DNA of 64,000 nucleotides from positions 351,001-415,000 of the forward strand of contig NZ_OY776414.1 of NCBI RefSeq assembly GCF_963675585.1, read 5' to 3'. The notes beneath the pieces are model-generated. The model had not been told where the DNA came from, searched no databases, and saw only the letters and a program-made list of their open reading frames with translations. Below are positions 10,533 to 22,286 of this stretch, piece after piece. Source of the stretch: an uncultured Draconibacterium sp. GTDB taxonomy: Bacteria; Bacteroidota; Bacteroidia; Bacteroidales; Prolixibacteraceae. A program made the position numbers and the translations under genes. The number at the start of each line of letters is the position of its first letter. Positions within the stretch are counted from its first letter, which is position 1.

Positions 10533-10540
10533 TATATTTG
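10533..10540 (+). promoter_or_regulatory. -7 box upstream of the cobalamin riboswitch
   Basis: TATATTTG, an exact match to TAnnTTTG, ends just before the conserved riboswitch body. Transcription would start near 10547, which places the whole aptamer in the leader. Confidence 0.65.
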
Positions 10541-10545
10541 CCCCT

Positions 10546-10742
10546 GAATTTTGGTTCTAACATTCATTTTTCATGAATGGGATTAAAATGGGAATCCGGT
10601 GCAAAACCGGAGCTGTACCCGCAGCTGTAAGTTCCATCTGCCAATTGGCGGATTGTTTTGTTGAACTACAAAAGCCACTGTTTAGATCGTTTCTGAATGG
10701 GAAGGCATCAACAAACGGAACAAGCCAGAAGACCTGCCACAA
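10546..10742 (+). ncRNA. Cobalamin (AdoCbl-type) riboswitch
   Basis: The conserved core is clear: GGGAAUCCGGUGCAAAACCGG, then AGCUGUACCCGCAGCUGUAA (the B12 box region), and the closing GCCAGAAGACCUGCCA at 10724-10739. This RNA senses adenosylcobalamin and represses downstream expression when B12 is abundant. It sits about 90 bp before btuB and probably controls btuB, btuG and perhaps the cob genes behind them. Exact 5' and 3' ends are estimates. Confidence 0.93.
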
Positions 10743-10833
10743 ATTCGTATTTAATAATTAAGCTTCGGGATAAAAAGCTTGAGAAATATAATTCATATTT
10801 TTCACCGATTATCCAAAGCTCCTTAATAATGTT

Positions 10834-14958: not shown

Positions 14959-15963
14959 ATGACCTTAATAGAACAACTTAAACATAAAATCGACAATAAA
15001 ACCAAACCACTGGGGTCACTGGGTTTGTTGGAAGAAATAGCACTTCAAATCGGACAAGTGCAAAACACTTTATCGCCCAAAATTGAAAGGCCGGCTTTGT
15101 TGGTATTTGCTGCCGATCATGGTTTGGCCGACGAAGGAATTAGTCCGTATCCGAAAGACGTTACCTGGCAAATGGTAATGAATTTTTGTGCAGGAGGTGC
15201 ATCAATAAATGTGTTTTGCCGCCAAAACGAACTGAATCTTAACGTTTTTGATGTTGGGGTAGATTACGAATTTCCGACAGAGTTGCCTGTGATAAATGCA
15301 AAAGTGGCACACGGTAGCCGCAATATGCGAAAAGAGCCTGCAATGACCATTGAGGAATGCCGGGCAGCAATGCAGGTGGGAGCTGATGCGGTTCGAAACG
15401 AAGCAGAAGCCGGCTGTAACACCATCGCATGTGGTGAAATGGGAATTGGAAATACTTCTCCTTCTTCCTTGTTGATGCACAAATTTACAGGCTATTCGGT
15501 AGAAGAATGTACAGGCCGGGGTTCCGGTTTGGATGACGGGCAGGTGGACAGAAAGACGCGGATTTTAAAAGAAATTGCCGGAAAATACAATCCTGAAACT
15601 CCGGAAGAAACACTGGCAACGTTGGGAGGACTGGAAATTGCAGCAATGGTTGGCGCTTATCTTGAAGCGAAGAAACAAAATATGCTTATTTTAATCGACG
15701 GATTTATAGCAACGGCTGCGGCAATTACTGCGATCCAAATGGATGAAACAGTGAAAGAAAACTGCATTTTTTGCCACAGTTCCGATGAAAAGGGACATAA
15801 ACTAATGTTGGATTATTTGGGAGCGAAACCATTGCTACAACTTGGTATGCGTTTGGGTGAAGGAACCGGAGCCGCAGTGGCAATGCCTTTGGTGCGTTCT
15901 GCAGTAAATTTCTTAAACGAAATGAGCAGTATGGAAGATGCCGGAGTTTCGAACAAAGACTAA
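14959..15963 (+). CDS. cobT: Nicotinate-nucleotide:dimethylbenzimidazole phosphoribosyltransferase
   Basis: 334 aa, normal length. Recognisable features are LVFAADHGLADEGISPYP near the N-terminus, GEMGIGNTSPSS in the middle, and the catalytic-glutamate region EGTGAAVAMPL near the C-terminus. CobT makes alpha-ribazole phosphate, the lower-ligand nucleotide of cobalamin. The gene lies 115 bp after cobU and 171 bp before cobS. That gap holds an imperfect inverted repeat but no gene. Confidence 0.95.
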   Translation: MTLIEQLKHKIDNKTKPLGSLGLLEEIALQIGQVQNTLSPKIERPALLVFAADHGLADEGISPYPKDVTWQMVMNFCAGGASINVFCRQNELNLNVFDVGVDYEFPTELPVINAKVAHGSRNMRKEPAMTIEECRAAMQVGADAVRNEAEAGCNTIACGEMGIGNTSPSSLLMHKFTGYSVEECTGRGSGLDDGQVDRKTRILKEIAGKYNPETPEETLATLGGLEIAAMVGAYLEAKKQNMLILIDGFIATAAAITAIQMDETVKENCIFCHSSDEKGHKLMLDYLGAKPLLQLGMRLGEGTGAAVAMPLVRSAVNFLNEMSSMEDAGVSNKD

Positions 15964-17552: not shown

Positions 17553-19031
17553 ATGAACACGAATAAAAAATACCACCCGATTATGTTCGTTGGAACTGGT
17601 TCCGACGTTGGTAAAAGTGTAATAAATGCCGGATTTGGGCGCATTTTTAAACAAGATGGACTAAATCCGGCTCCATTTAAAGCACAAAATATGTCGTTGA
17701 ATAGTTATCCTACGGCAAATGGTTTGGAAATTGGCCGTGCCCAGGCAGTTCAGGCTGAAGCGTGCGGGATTGAATGCCGGGTGGAAATGAATCCGGTGCT
17801 TTTAAAACCAACGGGTTACATGAATTCGCAAATTGTACTAAACGGCAAACCATGGGCAAATAAATCGGCAAAGGAATATTTTAACGGCACCGATCGCGAT
17901 TTCCTGTTTGCCGAATGTATGAATGCCTTTTCCCGTCTGGAAGAGGAATTTAATCCGATTGTTGTTGAAGGAGCCGGAAGTATTTCGGAAGTTAATCTGT
18001 GGGAAAAGGACATTACCAACATGAGGGTAGCAGTAGAAAAAAAGGCTGCTACTTATCTGATTGCCGACATTGATAAAGGGGGTGTTTTTGGTAGTGTTTA
18101 CGGCACCATGCTTTTATTGCCAGAAATTGAACGGAAACAGATTAAAGGGATAATTATCAACAAATTCAGAGGGGACATCTCACTTTTCGAGGATGGTGCT
18201 AAAAAGCTGGAAGAACTGTGCGGCGTGCCGGTTGTTGGTATAATTCCACATTTCCGTGACATTTATATTGATGATGAAGACTCTGTTGTGGTGGATAAAA
18301 AACAGTTTAAATCCATTGAAGGTAAAACCAATATTGCCGTAGTTTTGCTTCGTCATATGTCGAATTTTACCGACTTTAATGTATTGGAACGTATTCCGGA
18401 AGTGAACTTGTTTTATGCCGCAACTCCCGACGATATCGACCAGGCGGATATCGTTGTTCTCCCCGGTTCGAAAAATACAATTTCGGATACGCTTTTTCTG
18501 CAACGACAGGGAATGGCCGCTGCCATAAATAAGGCGCACGAGCAAGGTAAAGCAGTTTATGGAATATGTGGTGGTTTTCAGATGATGGGGAAGTGGATTA
18601 GTGATCCGGGACATGTTGAAGGGAATATTGAACGTGTTCCGGGACTTGGAATATTGCCTGTTGAGACCACCATAACTGAAGAAAAAGTTACTGAACAATG
18701 TACCTTTACATTTAAAGATAATCAATCAATTGGAAAAGGATACGAAATTCATATGGGCGAAACTCTTGCAGAAACTTCAAGTCCATTGTGTATAATCAAC
18801 GACAAAAAAGAAGATGGCTATTTCTTAAATTCAAAAACCTGGGGCACTTATATTCATGGAATTTTTGATAACAAGGAGATAATCAATTTAATATTGAAGG
18901 AATCGGGGCAGAACGTTATTACTGAAATGGACTTTCAGCAGTTTAAAGAGCAGCAGTATGATAAGCTGGCCGATTTGATTCGCGAAAATGTAGATATGGA
19001 TTATATCTATAAAACCATGGAAATTGATTAA
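17553..19031 (+). CDS. cobQ: Cobyric acid synthase
   Basis: 492 aa. The N-terminal amidoligase domain has FVGTGSDVGKSVINAGFGRIF (P-loop region) and FKAQNMSLNSYPTANGLEIGRAQ. The C-terminal class I glutaminase-like domain has the nucleophile in VYGICGGFQMMG and the His in TYIHGIFDN. CobQ amidates adenosylcobyrinic acid a,c-diamide at four positions. The stop codon overlaps the start of cbiB by 8 bp. Presence of CobQ means the cell does more than salvage cobinamide, although corrin-ring genes are not in this window. Confidence 0.95.
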   Translation: MNTNKKYHPIMFVGTGSDVGKSVINAGFGRIFKQDGLNPAPFKAQNMSLNSYPTANGLEIGRAQAVQAEACGIECRVEMNPVLLKPTGYMNSQIVLNGKPWANKSAKEYFNGTDRDFLFAECMNAFSRLEEEFNPIVVEGAGSISEVNLWEKDITNMRVAVEKKAATYLIADIDKGGVFGSVYGTMLLLPEIERKQIKGIIINKFRGDISLFEDGAKKLEELCGVPVVGIIPHFRDIYIDDEDSVVVDKKQFKSIEGKTNIAVVLLRHMSNFTDFNVLERIPEVNLFYAATPDDIDQADIVVLPGSKNTISDTLFLQRQGMAAAINKAHEQGKAVYGICGGFQMMGKWISDPGHVEGNIERVPGLGILPVETTITEEKVTEQCTFTFKDNQSIGKGYEIHMGETLAETSSPLCIINDKKEDGYFLNSKTWGTYIHGIFDNKEIINLILKESGQNVITEMDFQQFKEQQYDKLADLIRENVDMDYIYKTMEID

Positions 19032-19959
19032 TATCTCAGATATAATTCTTCCTTTACTTGCCGGTTTTGCGCTGGATTGTATTTTGGGCGATCCGCAATG
19101 GTTGCCACATCCCATTCGTCTATTTGGTTCTGCAATTTCCAGAGGAGAAAAACAACTTAACACAGGAGAAAATAGAAAGATAAAAGGTGCTTTACTTGCT
19201 TCGTCGTTAATTCTATTCACATTTTTTGTTTTACGTTTATTCTTGGTTCTCCTTGCACAATTTGAAATTCTAAGTCTCATTTTGTCGGCGGTTTTTGTTT
19301 TTTACGGTTTGGCAAACCATTCTTTAATTCGCGAATCACTACATGTTATAAGGCAATTAAACCAGAATGGGGTAGTGGCCGGACGCAAGCAGTTGAGTCG
19401 AATTGTTGGCCGCGATACTTCATCACTTTTCGAAAATCAAATTCGAACAGCTGTGTTGGAAACTTTAGCAGAGAACCTTAGCGATGGAGTTGTGGCACCG
19501 CTTTTTTATTATGCAATTGGTGGTGTACCTGCAATGATGGCTTACAAAATGGCAAATACGCTCGACTCGATGATTGGATACAAAAACAAGCGCTACACAC
19601 AGTTTGGATGGTTTGCAGCTAAACTTGATGATGTATTAAATTTTATCCCTGCACGTTTAACTGCATTTCTTATGGTGTTGATTACCCTAAATTATAGGGG
19701 GCTGAAATATATTTTCAAATACGGAAACAAACATGCAAGTCCGAATGCCGGTTATCCGGAAGCTGCTTTAGCCGGAATTCTGAATTGTAAATTCGGAGGT
19801 CCTAACATGTATCACGGAGTTTTAGTGGATAAACCTTTTATCGGAAAAAACAATAAAACGATTACCGACAAAGATGTAATTAAAGCCTGCATCATTAACA
19901 GTCTGGTCTGCTTGTGTTCTTTACTGATAATAGTTTCAATCTATTTATTTCTATTGTAA
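19024..19959 (+). CDS. cbiB: Adenosylcobinamide-phosphate synthase
   Basis: 311 aa with a TTG start overlapping cobQ. DCILGDPQWLPHPIRLFG is the family's N-terminal signature. RDTSSLFENQIRTAVLETLAENLSDGVVAPLFYY and MIGYKNKRYTQFGWFAAKLDD follow, with several membrane helices. CbiB attaches the aminopropanol (phosphate) arm to adenosylcobyric acid. It is the last gene of the cob group. No L-threonine-phosphate decarboxylase (CobD) lies next to it. After its stop comes 1.35 kb without protein genes. Confidence 0.94.
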   Translation: MINISDIILPLLAGFALDCILGDPQWLPHPIRLFGSAISRGEKQLNTGENRKIKGALLASSLILFTFFVLRLFLVLLAQFEILSLILSAVFVFYGLANHSLIRESLHVIRQLNQNGVVAGRKQLSRIVGRDTSSLFENQIRTAVLETLAENLSDGVVAPLFYYAIGGVPAMMAYKMANTLDSMIGYKNKRYTQFGWFAAKLDDVLNFIPARLTAFLMVLITLNYRGLKYIFKYGNKHASPNAGYPEAALAGILNCKFGGPNMYHGVLVDKPFIGKNNKTITDKDVIKACIINSLVCLCSLLIIVSIYLFLL

Positions 19960-20063
19960 TTTTCTGATACAGATTGTACATTCAAATCCTACATATTTTA
20001 AAGAAAACTGACTTAATCTCAGTGGTGTTGTTAGATCTGTTTTTACTAAAATGGATATAAACA

Positions 20064-20145
20064 AAAAAAGGACGGGTCAACACCCATCCTTTTCACTAAC
20101 TAAACCAATAAAACTAATCAAACCTAAACTTATGAACTAAAACTT
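20064..20145 (-). ncRNA. Candidate small RNA, array copy A
   Basis: The minus-strand -7 box TATATTTG (20152-20159) is preceded by CTTAAC (20181-20186) at 21 nt. Transcription would start near 20145 and end at a hairpin, AAAGGATGGGT/ACCCGTCCTTT with GTTG loop, followed by Ts at about 20064. The spacer between the two boxes differs in sequence from the other copies but has the same length, which supports selection on the promoter. Confidence 0.55.
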
Positions 20146-20325
20146 ATGCAACAAATATAAGGGTAAATGTCGAATATTAAGTTAAGTCAATGTTAAAATT
20201 GAAATTTCAAAAAGATTTTAAAATAAATGTTAAGAAAGAAAAAAGACAGCAAGTGTGAAGAGTTGTGTGAAAATGTATCAGAAAGTTCTATTGGTGTGGA
20301 AATGTGACTTTTGTCATGTTTAAAC

Positions 20326-20408
20326 AAAAAAAGGATGAGTCAACACCCATCCTTTTCACTAACTAAACCAATAAAACTAATCAAACCTAAACTTATGAAC
20401 TAAAACTT
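20326..20408 (-). ncRNA. Candidate small RNA, array copy B
   Basis: The -7 box TACATTTG (20415-20422) lies 21 nt downstream of a GTTAAC hexamer (20444-20449) on the minus strand. The terminator stem is AAAGGATGGGT/ACTCATCCTTT. One G-C pair of copy A is G-U here and one U-G pair is U-A, so the stem still closes on the minus-strand RNA. Confidence 0.55.
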
Positions 20409-20571
20409 ATGGTACAAATGTAGGGTGAAAAACTGAGTTTTTGGTTAACTGAATGTTAAAAAATGTGTTTTATAACATATTTTAAATCTATCTTAAATCG
20501 AGGAAATCTATCGTTGAAAATTGAAAGGAGAAGAGGTGTTTTTGGAAACTAAGTGTGTTTTAGAAAAGCAT

Positions 20572-20654
20572 AAAAAAAGGACGGGTCAACACCCATCCTT
20601 TTCACTAACTAAACCAATAAAACTAATCAAACCTAAACTTATGAACTAAAACTT
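20572..20654 (-). ncRNA. Candidate small RNA, array copy C
   Basis: The -7 box TACATTTG (20661-20668), with CTTAAC (20690-20695) 21 nt upstream. The transcribed part is nearly identical to copy B and the terminator stem is the same as in copy A. Confidence 0.55.
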
Positions 20655-20817
20655 ATGGTACAAATGTAGAGTGAAAAGCTGAGATTGTGGTTAAGTGAAT
20701 GTTAAAAAATGTGTTTTATAACATATTTTAAATCTATCTTAAATCGAGGAAATCTATCGTTGAAAATTGAGAGGGGAAAAGGTGTTTTTTGAAAATACGT
20801 GTCTTTTGGAGAGGCAT

Positions 20818-20899
20818 AAAAAAAGGATGAGTCAACACTCATCCTTTTCACTAACTAAACCAATAAAACTAATCAAACCTAAACTTATGAACTAAAACT
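20818..20899 (-). ncRNA. Candidate small RNA, array copy D
   Basis: The -7 box TACATTTG (20906-20913), with CTTAAC (20935-20940) 21 nt upstream. The terminator stem is AAAGGATGAGT/ACTCATCCTTT: the pair that is G-C in A, C and E and G-U in B is A-U here, giving a full compensatory series. Confidence 0.55.
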
Positions 20900-21062
20900 A
20901 TGCTACAAATGTAGGGCGAATAACTGAGATTGTGGTTAAGTGAATGTTAAAAAATGTGTTTTATAACATATTTTAAATCTATCTTAAATCGAGGAAATCT
21001 ATCGTTGAAAATTGAAAGGGGAAAGCGTGGTTTTGAAAAATACGTGTCTTTTGGAAAGGCAT

Positions 21063-21146
21063 AAAAAAAAGGACGGGTCAACACCCATCCTTTTCACTAA
21101 CTAAACCAATAAAACTAATCAAACCTAAACTTATGAACTAAAACTT
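21063..21146 (-). ncRNA. Candidate small RNA, array copy E (weak promoter)
   Basis: Cassette and terminator match copies A and C. The promoter box is TATCTTCG (21153-21160), one mismatch from TAnnTTTG, and no CTTAAC is seen at 21 nt. This edge copy may be poorly expressed or dead. Confidence 0.4.
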
Positions 21147-21255
21147 ATGCTGCGAAGATATGCTGAAAAACATAAACTGGCACCACTTTTTTCAAAAAAT
21201 GTATGTTTTTTCGGCATATTTTAACTCAATGTTAACTTCGTAAAATATTTTAAAA

Positions 21256-21288
21256 AGAAAAGCCCTCCGCAATAGCGAAAGGCTTTAA
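21256..21288 (-). terminator. Terminator for the floA operon
   Basis: On the minus strand AAAGCCTTTCGC, an AATA-type loop and GCGGAGGGCTTTTCTTTTT form an imperfect stem with a T run, about 20 nt after the floA stop. Confidence 0.7.
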
Positions 21289-21308
21289 GTATAAATAACA
21301 ATATCTGA

Positions 21309-22286
21309 TTATTCTTTCGGTACATTTCCTTCGCCTGCAATTGAATCTCGCATGGAAGTATCAGCCATTATGTTTTTGTATTTCATATAATCCATAATAC
21401 CAAGATTACCACTTCTAAAGGCTTCAGCGATAGCCAGCGGAACCTGAGCTTCTGCTTCGATTACTTTCGCTCTCATCTCCTGTGCAGTTGCTTTATTTTC
21501 CTGTTCAAGTGCAATTGCCATAGCTCTACGTTCCTCTGCTTTAGCTTGTGCTATGTTTTTATCCGCTTCTGCCTGGTCCATTTGTAATACCGCTCCAATG
21601 TTCTTACCTATGTCAATGTCGGCGATATCAATCGATAGTATTTCAAAAGCCGTTCCTGCATCCAGGCCTTTTTCCAGTACTACCCTCGAAATAAAGTCAG
21701 GATTCTCGAGTACTGCCTTGTGCGAATGCGACGATCCGATGGATGAAACAATTCCTTCACCAACACGTGCAAGAACGGTTTCTTCTCCGGCACCACCAAC
21801 CAATTGTTTAATATTGGCACGTACGGTTACACGGGCTTTGGCAATTAACTGAATACCGTCTTTTGAAACTGCAGTAACAGGTGGTGTATTTATAACTTTA
21901 GGATTAACCGACATTTGAACAGCCTCGAAAACATCGCGACCAGCCAAATCGATTGCAGTTGCCATATTAAATGGTAGTTCAATGTTTGCTTTTGCTGCTG
22001 AAACCAGGGCATGAACAACTCTGGCAACGTGTCCGCCGGCAAGATAGTGTGCTTCCAAAGCGTCGCGGCTAAGATCAACATCGGCTTTTGTTCCTTCAAT
22101 CATCGCCCGAACAATTACTCCAGGAGGTACTTTTCTGAAACGCATTAAAAATAACTGTAACAACGAAATGCGAACTCCTGAGACCAGGGCTGAAAACCAC
22201 AGTCCGATTGGTATAAAATAGAGGATAATAAAAAGTAATACAATTACTGCTACTATTAGTCCCCATGCTCCTACTGCTTCTATCAT
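21309..22286 (-). CDS. floA: Flotillin-like protein FloA (SPFH family)
   Basis: 325 aa. An N-terminal hydrophobic hairpin (about residues 8-45) is followed by the SPFH domain ([33 protein letters not shown]). An Ala/Glu-rich coiled coil follows ([20 protein letters not shown], near 240-290). FloA proteins organise membrane microdomains. The NfeD gene lies 4 bp upstream, the standard pairing of flotillin and NfeD. An operon with clpS and a SPOR protein is likely, since all run on the minus strand with tiny gaps. Confidence 0.93.

Follow-up and report, generated by a model that had tools for sequence, protein, structure and literature searches.

The window, i.e. the whole stretch of DNA that was analysed (64,000 nucleotides; G000:C4:351001-415000 in a host genome of 6.03 Mb), contains a 1349-bp gap extending from the end of cbiB (19959) to the start of floA (21309), in which no ORF of at least 80 amino acids was found. 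The gap holds an array of five direct-repeat cassettes on the minus strand (approximately 20063-21148), which start at 20063, 20326, 20572, 20818, and 21064 with spacings of 263, 246, 246, and 246 bp. This confirmed a preliminary description of this DNA, which had reported five repeats in a protein-free gap. The cassettes were designated copies A (20063..20147, approximate 5' end), B (20326..20410), C (20572..20656), D (20818..20901), and E (21064..21148), and scored 87.1, 83.1, 87.1, 81.7, and 87.1 bits, respectively, with model R1. Copy E is the leader copy, closest to floA (21309..22286, minus strand; NF010186, 527 bits), the upstream neighbor, which has the same orientation as the array and is set apart from it by a 3' terminator (21259..21286, minus strand, terminator scan). 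The convergent neighbor, cbiB (19024..19959, plus strand; TIGR00380, 227.7 bits), lies outside the system. A sixth paralog, copy F, is located 1.96 Mb from the array (G000:C4:2328515-2328596). Elsewhere in the window, a cobalamin riboswitch (RF00174, 89.4 bits; 10535-10755) precedes an ORF that resembles, by eye, a TonB-dependent receptor.

Each cassette comprises a minus-strand unit of about 84 nt, consisting of a U/G/A-rich body followed by a 13-pair hairpin with a GUUG loop and a T run. The predicted RNA has a length of about 80-85 nt per cassette. The 53-nt body contains a single C, as anticipated by the earlier remark that the 5' body is almost free of this base. Terminators are located at 20065-20094 (copy A), 20328-20357 (copy B), 20574-20603 (copy C), approximately 20820-20849 (copy D), and approximately 21066-21095 (copy E). 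The terminator scan of the window returned eight terminator-like sites, all on the minus strand, versus 0.5 expected; these cover copies A, B, C, and E (inner part only) and floA, copy D being unlisted yet folding alike. Minimum-energy folds of copies A to E also contained a weak 5' hairpin, part of which is retained in the centroid. Since copy A folds well on both strands (z of -4.17 for the minus strand and -3.78 for the plus strand), folding alone does not identify the transcribed strand.

The stem was examined in homologs collected by the core pattern followed by a T run. The 122 distinct bodies were clustered into 23 representatives, from which L253 (a false match) and L141 (a near-duplicate of L086) were removed and to which copy D of the window was added. 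The resulting alignment of 22 sequences (A4) was generated by MAFFT without structure, and the stem was drawn by hand. Conservation of the core is partly by construction, since the core served as the search key, whereas the stem played no part in choosing the sequences. The preliminary description had made conservation of the stem in homologs one of the touchstones of its proposal: 99.0% of the stem cells were paired over the 22 homologs, a value as high being obtained in 0 of 500 shuffles. The covariation score was 0.458, versus 0.230 in shuffled alignments. Two-sided changes were present in 48 stem cells (12.8 in shuffled alignments; none of 500 shuffles reached 48) and involved 8 of the 15 stem pairs, a number attained by 14 of the 500 shuffles. 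Sliding the stem lowered the paired fraction to 39-64%. Read on the minus strand, 283 of 286 cells were paired, versus 250 of 286 on the plus strand, and the earlier argument that stem variation points to the minus strand therefore holds. The variants in the five copies are as originally described; they provide a thin basis by themselves, and it is the 22 homologs that decide. Thus, the cassettes appear to be minus-strand small RNA (sRNA) genes with covarying terminators, as had been proposed, a conclusion supported by the covariation in homologs and by the exclusive location of terminator-like sites on this strand.

The same results bear on the idea that the repeats are not RNA genes but plus-strand coding sequences for short peptides in tandem, such as ...KKRTGQHPSFSLTKPIKLIKPKLMN. 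Similar plus-strand short ORFs do recur in copies A to D. However, copy E is in a different frame, the start codons differ, and frame-breaking indels are found among homologs; in addition, the stem shows the covariation of an RNA structure, and it is the minus strand that has the promoters and terminators. Plus-strand peptides were rejected on these grounds and are considered highly improbable.

The homolog search in related genomes called for by the preliminary description revealed that the cassette is widespread in the family of the host, the Prolixibacteraceae. With copy C as the query (E <= 0.01), matches were obtained in 73 of 120 genomes, comprising 70 of the 73 genomes of this family (the host genome included; a few matched only at E 0.004) and 3 of 47 genomes outside it, the latter weakly. 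The core was present in at least 120 stretches listed, from Draconibacterium, Maribellus, Mariniphaga, Sunxiuqinia, Mangrovibacterium, Tangfeifania, Prolixibacter, and other Prolixibacteraceae, among others. Among 245 distinct cassettes, the 41-nt body was identical (A/G at one place) in 136 and the 17-nt core was found in 231. The floA gene was detected in 59 of 187 sources (the window and loci L003-L188, fetched for having the cassette, with some loci representing the same DNA twice and short flanks able to lose floA); in 59 of these 59 sources, a cassette was located downstream from floA, on the same strand and within 2.5 kb.

A motif scan of the minus strand identified promoters of the form TTAAC-N6-TTAAC-N21 followed by a -7 box upstream from copies A (20152..20196; box TATATTTG), B (20415..20459), C (20661..20705), and D (20906..20950), the last three with the box TACATTTG. 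In the region upstream from copy E (21153..21173, minus strand), the TTAAC repeat is absent; only a degenerate, weak -7 box, TATCTTCG (21153-21160), was read from the sequence, overlapped by the palindrome ATGTTTTTCAGCAT (21160-21173). The region upstream from copy F reads TTTG-N20-TATCTTTG. TTAAC-N19-23-TAnnTTTG matched the window at four positions, all on the minus strand and all with a spacer of 21, versus 0.78 expected, although 3 of 100 shuffles also gave four matches. The preliminary description had associated a TTAAC-type hexamer with a TAnnTTTG box. This stands for the promoters of copies A to D and for the spacer of 21; the hexamer, in contrast, is not a plain promoter hexamer but one half of a direct repeat, a second TTAAC being present 11 bp upstream from the first in these four copies.

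The promoters were further analyzed in 205 distinct cassettes from non-viral loci with enough flanking sequence. TAnnTTTG was found upstream from 198 of them. TTAAC (at most one mismatch) was present at a spacer of 19-23 in 135 cassettes (126 at exactly 21), versus 21.5 in composition-shuffled upstream regions; in 123, another TTAAC lay exactly 11 bp farther upstream, versus 0.76 in such regions. In the remaining 70 cassettes, either the -7 box was missing or no TTAAC element stood at the spacings allowed. In the genome of the host, TTAAC-N6-TTAAC-N20-23-TAnnTTTG occurred at eight sites, four of which are in the array, versus none for the reversed control; the bare repeat showed no excess genome-wide (33 versus 68 for the reversed control), the excess appearing only jointly with the -7 box.

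One of these eight sites lies between a 304-amino-acid ORF and a divergent histidine kinase gene, which is followed by a gene for an OmpR-family response regulator. The 304-amino-acid ORF had no Pfam match and was present in 36 of the 73 genomes searched. Thirty loci were fetched, all from a single GTDB genus, that of the window. In 30 of 30, four exact TTAAC units, 11, 10, and 11 bp apart, preceded the ORF, and an RprX-like histidine kinase was encoded on the opposite strand. The distance from the repeat to the -7 box is 23 nt at the kinase locus versus 21 in the array. A second pair of histidine kinase and response regulator genes is also flanked by TTAAC repeats. The best NCBIfam match of both response regulators was RprY (NF051850), with 287.4 and 252.5 bits, at the top of 95 and 92 families, respectively. 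Since neither reached the RprY equivalog cut-off of 370 bits, they are designated RprY-like, not RprY. The available part of PMC3646045, which concerns RprY, gives no binding motif. The second TTAAC unit 11 bp upstream and the presence of the repeat beside a two-component system suggest that it is the operator of a regulator. Based on the sharing of the motif with its -7 box, the four-unit repeat by the kinase, the second kinase-regulator pair, and the RprY-like scores, control of copies A to D by an RprY-like regulator is proposed, binding to the repeat being deduced from gene adjacency and motif sharing.

The repeat could also be explained with the same sRNAs but no dedicated regulator: TTAAC would be a lineage-specific -33 element, its upstream unit would be UP-like, and the housekeeping sigma factor would transcribe the cassettes constitutively, copy number setting the dose. 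The inner TTAAC does occupy the position of the Bacteroidota -33 element, with a spacer of 21 in 126 of 135 cassettes. TTTG is found in its place in copy F and in 24 of the 198 cassettes having a -7 box, and the lack of genome-wide over-representation of the bare repeat also favors this reading. Such an element would not account for the location of the second TTAAC exactly one helical turn away in 123 of 205 cassettes, for the four units conserved, at a spacer of 23, next to a histidine kinase gene in all 30 loci, or for the restriction of the pattern to eight promoters in the genome. We therefore regard constitutive transcription as unlikely, though the most serious of the alternatives considered, and favor the RprY-like operator. 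Control by the Pho regulon was rejected since locus L189 does not contain TTAAC-N6-TTAAC, even with one mismatch, before the PstB operon; its ORFs were identified by reading as pstS/C/A, phoU, and phoBR, and the nearest partial boxes precede another response regulator ORF at 15108. As a separate observation, TTAAC-N6-TTAAC at L192:3971-3987 adjoins an ORF for a LiaF/LiaI-like membrane protein, which is consistent with an envelope-stress regulon.

The preliminary description had proposed that the body is antisense to leaders ending in CTTATGAA. Analysis of the start regions of SusC-like genes supported this proposal, the ATG in that sequence corresponding to the SusC start codon. The genome has 56 SusC-like matches, one of them partial; for the 55 others, the start was taken as the most upstream in-frame ATG. 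The controls were the starts of 129 ORFs of at least 150 amino acids (ORFs rather than annotated genes) from the window and 27 loci of the same genome. The mean energy of the duplex between body and target was -20.0 kcal/mol for the SusC starts versus -15.4 for the others (p = 1.3e-9), a p-value that is too generous, as are those below, because SusC genes are paralogs with non-independent leaders. When the body was dinucleotide-shuffled 100 times, no shuffled version was as good as the real one (best, -17.5). Shuffling the SusC leaders with the start codon kept gave -15.9, values as low as the real one being obtained in 0 of 60 shuffles. Among all 9- to 11-mers of the body (p-values uncorrected over k-mers), UUCAUAAGUUU was the most enriched, with complements at 14 of 55 SusC starts versus 1 of 129 others, G-U pairs allowed. 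The strict pattern AAA[CT]TTATGAA was found at 13 of 55 SusC starts versus 0 of 129 (p = 5e-8) and, among genes starting with ATGAA, at 13 of 40 versus 0 of 46 (p = 1.4e-5). The fit of the seed UUCAUAAGUUU to SusC start codons is thus supported by sequence. The search for complementary leaders in the whole genome, also called for at the outset, was borne out only for SusC: the 17-nt seed complement, with at most three mismatches, showed no genome-wide excess (73 places, six of which are the sRNA genes themselves, versus 112 for the reversed control). The informative test is the comparison anchored on the start codon and restricted to SusC. A SusC-like gene at G000:C4:823130-825688 contains six internal stops and is apparently a pseudogene.

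An sRNA family with comparable properties is FopS. According to the available parts of PMC11697453, FopS is a gut-bacterium family described in 2025 in Bacteroidaceae, with 14 members in B. thetaiotaomicron, which combine a seed in a single-stranded 5' part with a terminator and measure about 65-70 nt by northern blotting. These sRNAs were shown experimentally to repress SusC-like transporters near their start codons, an effect antagonized by the RRM protein RbpB (PMC11697453). The earlier remark that no named family is known to have such properties is therefore not supported, since FopS (RF04319) has the architecture and the kind of target, even though the RF04319 model does not match the array. 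This Rfam entry (BTncRNA_FopS; gathering score of 56 bits) gave no match in the window at gathering and none in 19960-21310 at E up to 5; in the whole genome at E up to 10, it matched 14 places, none of which was one of the six cassettes. RF04319 matched 81 of 295 genomes of the order, 55 of them above the cut-off. Model R1, built without FopS, matched 33 of the 295 genomes, 29 of them outside the family and weakly (E 2e-5 to 0.009), and touched FopS positions, again weakly, in 5 of 30 FopS loci (L397, L408, L410, L417, and L421; E 0.25-3).

The array resembles FopS in being multi-copy, in the order of its parts (an unstructured 5' seed, then the hairpin of a terminator), in its short length, in its TAnnTTTG-type promoters, and in a UUUUCAU-type stretch able to cover a start codon; the target mRNAs are also SusC mRNAs, those of the array being predicted. 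Two of the features that define FopS, a single-stranded 5' seed part preceding a Rho-independent terminator and complementarity to SusC start regions, are present in the array. In contrast, the body is UUUUUCAUGGUAUUAGAUUUAAGGUUAA in the FopS copies read and UUCAUAAGUUUAGGUUUGAUUAGUUUUAUUGGUUUAGUUAG in the array, and the FopS seed UUUUUCAUGGUAUUAGAUUUAAGG, derived from 15 FopS loci, is absent from the cassettes, only the UUCAU part and the UUAG/AGGUU-type continuation being common. The two types also differ upstream, 22 of 33 FopS copies having an ATGTT..CAT palindrome and most array-type copies having TTAAC repeats; the array, moreover, stands in tandem beside floA. Apparent intermediates were noted. 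Locus L375 was scored by both models (45.1 bits with R1 and 42.6 with RF04319, below gathering), as were two tandem FopS-like sRNAs of the host genome (C3:474317-474386, L427, and 474538-474611, L428; 38.1 and 31.8 bits with RF04319, 31.1 and 29.9 with R1, below gathering), and TTTTTCATAGATTTAGATTTGGTTAACAAAG (L371) appears intermediate by eye. Since RF04319 misses the cassettes, the ranges of the two models overlap at L375 and the C3 loci, and R1 barely touches FopS, the array is called FopS-like, FopS being its closest known family, and is not filed as FopS. These distributions suggest a superfamily with a broad presence in the order, of which the Rfam model covers only a part. The L427 and L428 sRNAs lie between ORFs read as ClpB-like and pyruvate-phosphate-dikinase-like.

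Other known RNAs were also considered. GibS of B. thetaiotaomicron shares with FopS the R1 seed region and pairing at translation initiation regions, and is set apart from the array, by its description in the available parts of PMC11697453, by two seeds and a non-canonical promoter. Four sub-threshold matches to L20_leader over the cassettes (best E 0.002, 29.5 bits versus 58.7 needed) and another on L375 were taken as chance matches in AU-rich sequence. Literature searches on FopS/RF04319, GibS, the Bacteroidetes Pho box, RprX/RprY, Prolixibacteraceae small RNAs, and TTTAAC repeats gave no account of the cassette family, as judged mostly from search results; PMC13370916, in its available part, deals with another RNA.

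Another possibility is that the sRNA works mainly through titration of an RbpB-type RRM protein and less through mRNA pairing, the long body being a protein-binding site and the array a sponge. The identity of the 41-nt body (A/G at one place) in 136 of 245 cassettes exceeds the needs of a seed, the genes are multi-copy, the genome has two RRM_1 matches, and the RbpB peaks located inside sRNAs are longer than 50 nt in the available parts of PMC11697453. Sponging would not predict, however, that the body stretch most enriched in complements at SusC genes spans the start codon and belongs to the portion common to all cassette types. We consider titration improbable, more so than constitutive transcription, and retain pairing with SusC mRNAs; an RbpB-like partner is possible since two RRM_1 proteins are encoded.

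Taking these data together, we assign a probability of about 0.7 to the reading that the array consists of five tandem genes for one trans-acting FopS-like sRNA, driven by a response regulator and repressing SusC-type transporters. The sequence supports the sRNA genes on the minus strand with their terminators, the repeats in their promoters, their conservation, and their complementarity to SusC. In the scheme that we infer for transcription, regulator identity, repression, and any protein partner, each copy would use its own terminator and at least copies A to D their own promoters. A phosphorylated RprY-type response regulator of the OmpR family would bind the 11-bp TTAAC direct repeats and fire copies A to D, the leader copy E being driven by another element. 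Each RNA of about 80-85 nt would present an unstructured, C-poor 5' body, the seed UUCAUAAGUUU of which would pair over the start codon (AAA-C/U-UU-AUG-AA) of SusC-type mRNAs, the remaining body pairing along the leader. Pairing would block ribosome entry and simultaneously reduce translation from many SusCD operons; the presence of several copies would increase dose and speed, and an RRM protein may modulate pairing, like RbpB in Bacteroides. In this best-supported chain, the putative block at SusC start codons has a direct experimental precedent in FopS, and the regulator step is drawn from motif sharing.

More tentatively, and with somewhat less than even odds, an RprXY-type envelope-stress circuit might fire a tandem sRNA battery silencing dozens of SusC at their start codons in environmental Bacteroidota, FopS being one branch of an order-wide superfamily in which promoters and seeds diverged and the start-codon target was kept. 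If so, the RprXY-sRNA circuit would correspond, in Bacteroidota, to the known OmpR-OmrA/B and sigmaE-MicA/RybB circuits. OmrA/OmrB, the Cia-dependent sRNAs, and the Qrr sRNAs are driven by response regulators. They are sibling-sRNA families according to the available parts of PMC11697453, but belong to other phyla and have other targets. For the control of glycan uptake by multi-copy sRNAs, FopS provides a worked example, and the array would extend a related family, with a different body, to a second family of the order. In addition, the array points to a specific candidate regulator and to a rule for targets that can be tested, i.e. pairing across AUG-AA of SusC mRNAs.

The palindrome found at copy E has similar counterparts at FopS copies. 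ATGTTn4-6[AG]CAT (e.g. ATGTTATATAACAT, similar to ATGTTTTTCAGCAT) was present upstream from 22 of 33 FopS copies, versus 0 in one shuffle, and a similar palindrome was present upstream from 42 of 246 array-type cassettes, versus 3 in one shuffle. Among 40 floA-proximal copies, identified by pattern, 16 had the palindrome and 21 the TTAAC repeat, never both, whereas among 75 other copies 13 had the palindrome, all of them with the repeat too, and 71 had the repeat. This sequence, found upstream from FopS copies (L397-L426) and in copy E, is a candidate for the site bound by the activator of FopS, a protein that PMC11697453 does not name in its available parts.

In the phage collection, the search at E <= 10 returned 66 records and no credible match, the best E among the matches listed being 0.2. 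Apparently whole cassettes (core, hairpin, and T run) were present in two of the 31 core-bearing viral contigs, L346 (IMGVR_UViG_3300029449_000005) and L342, echoing the phage-borne FopS mentioned in the available parts of PMC11697453.
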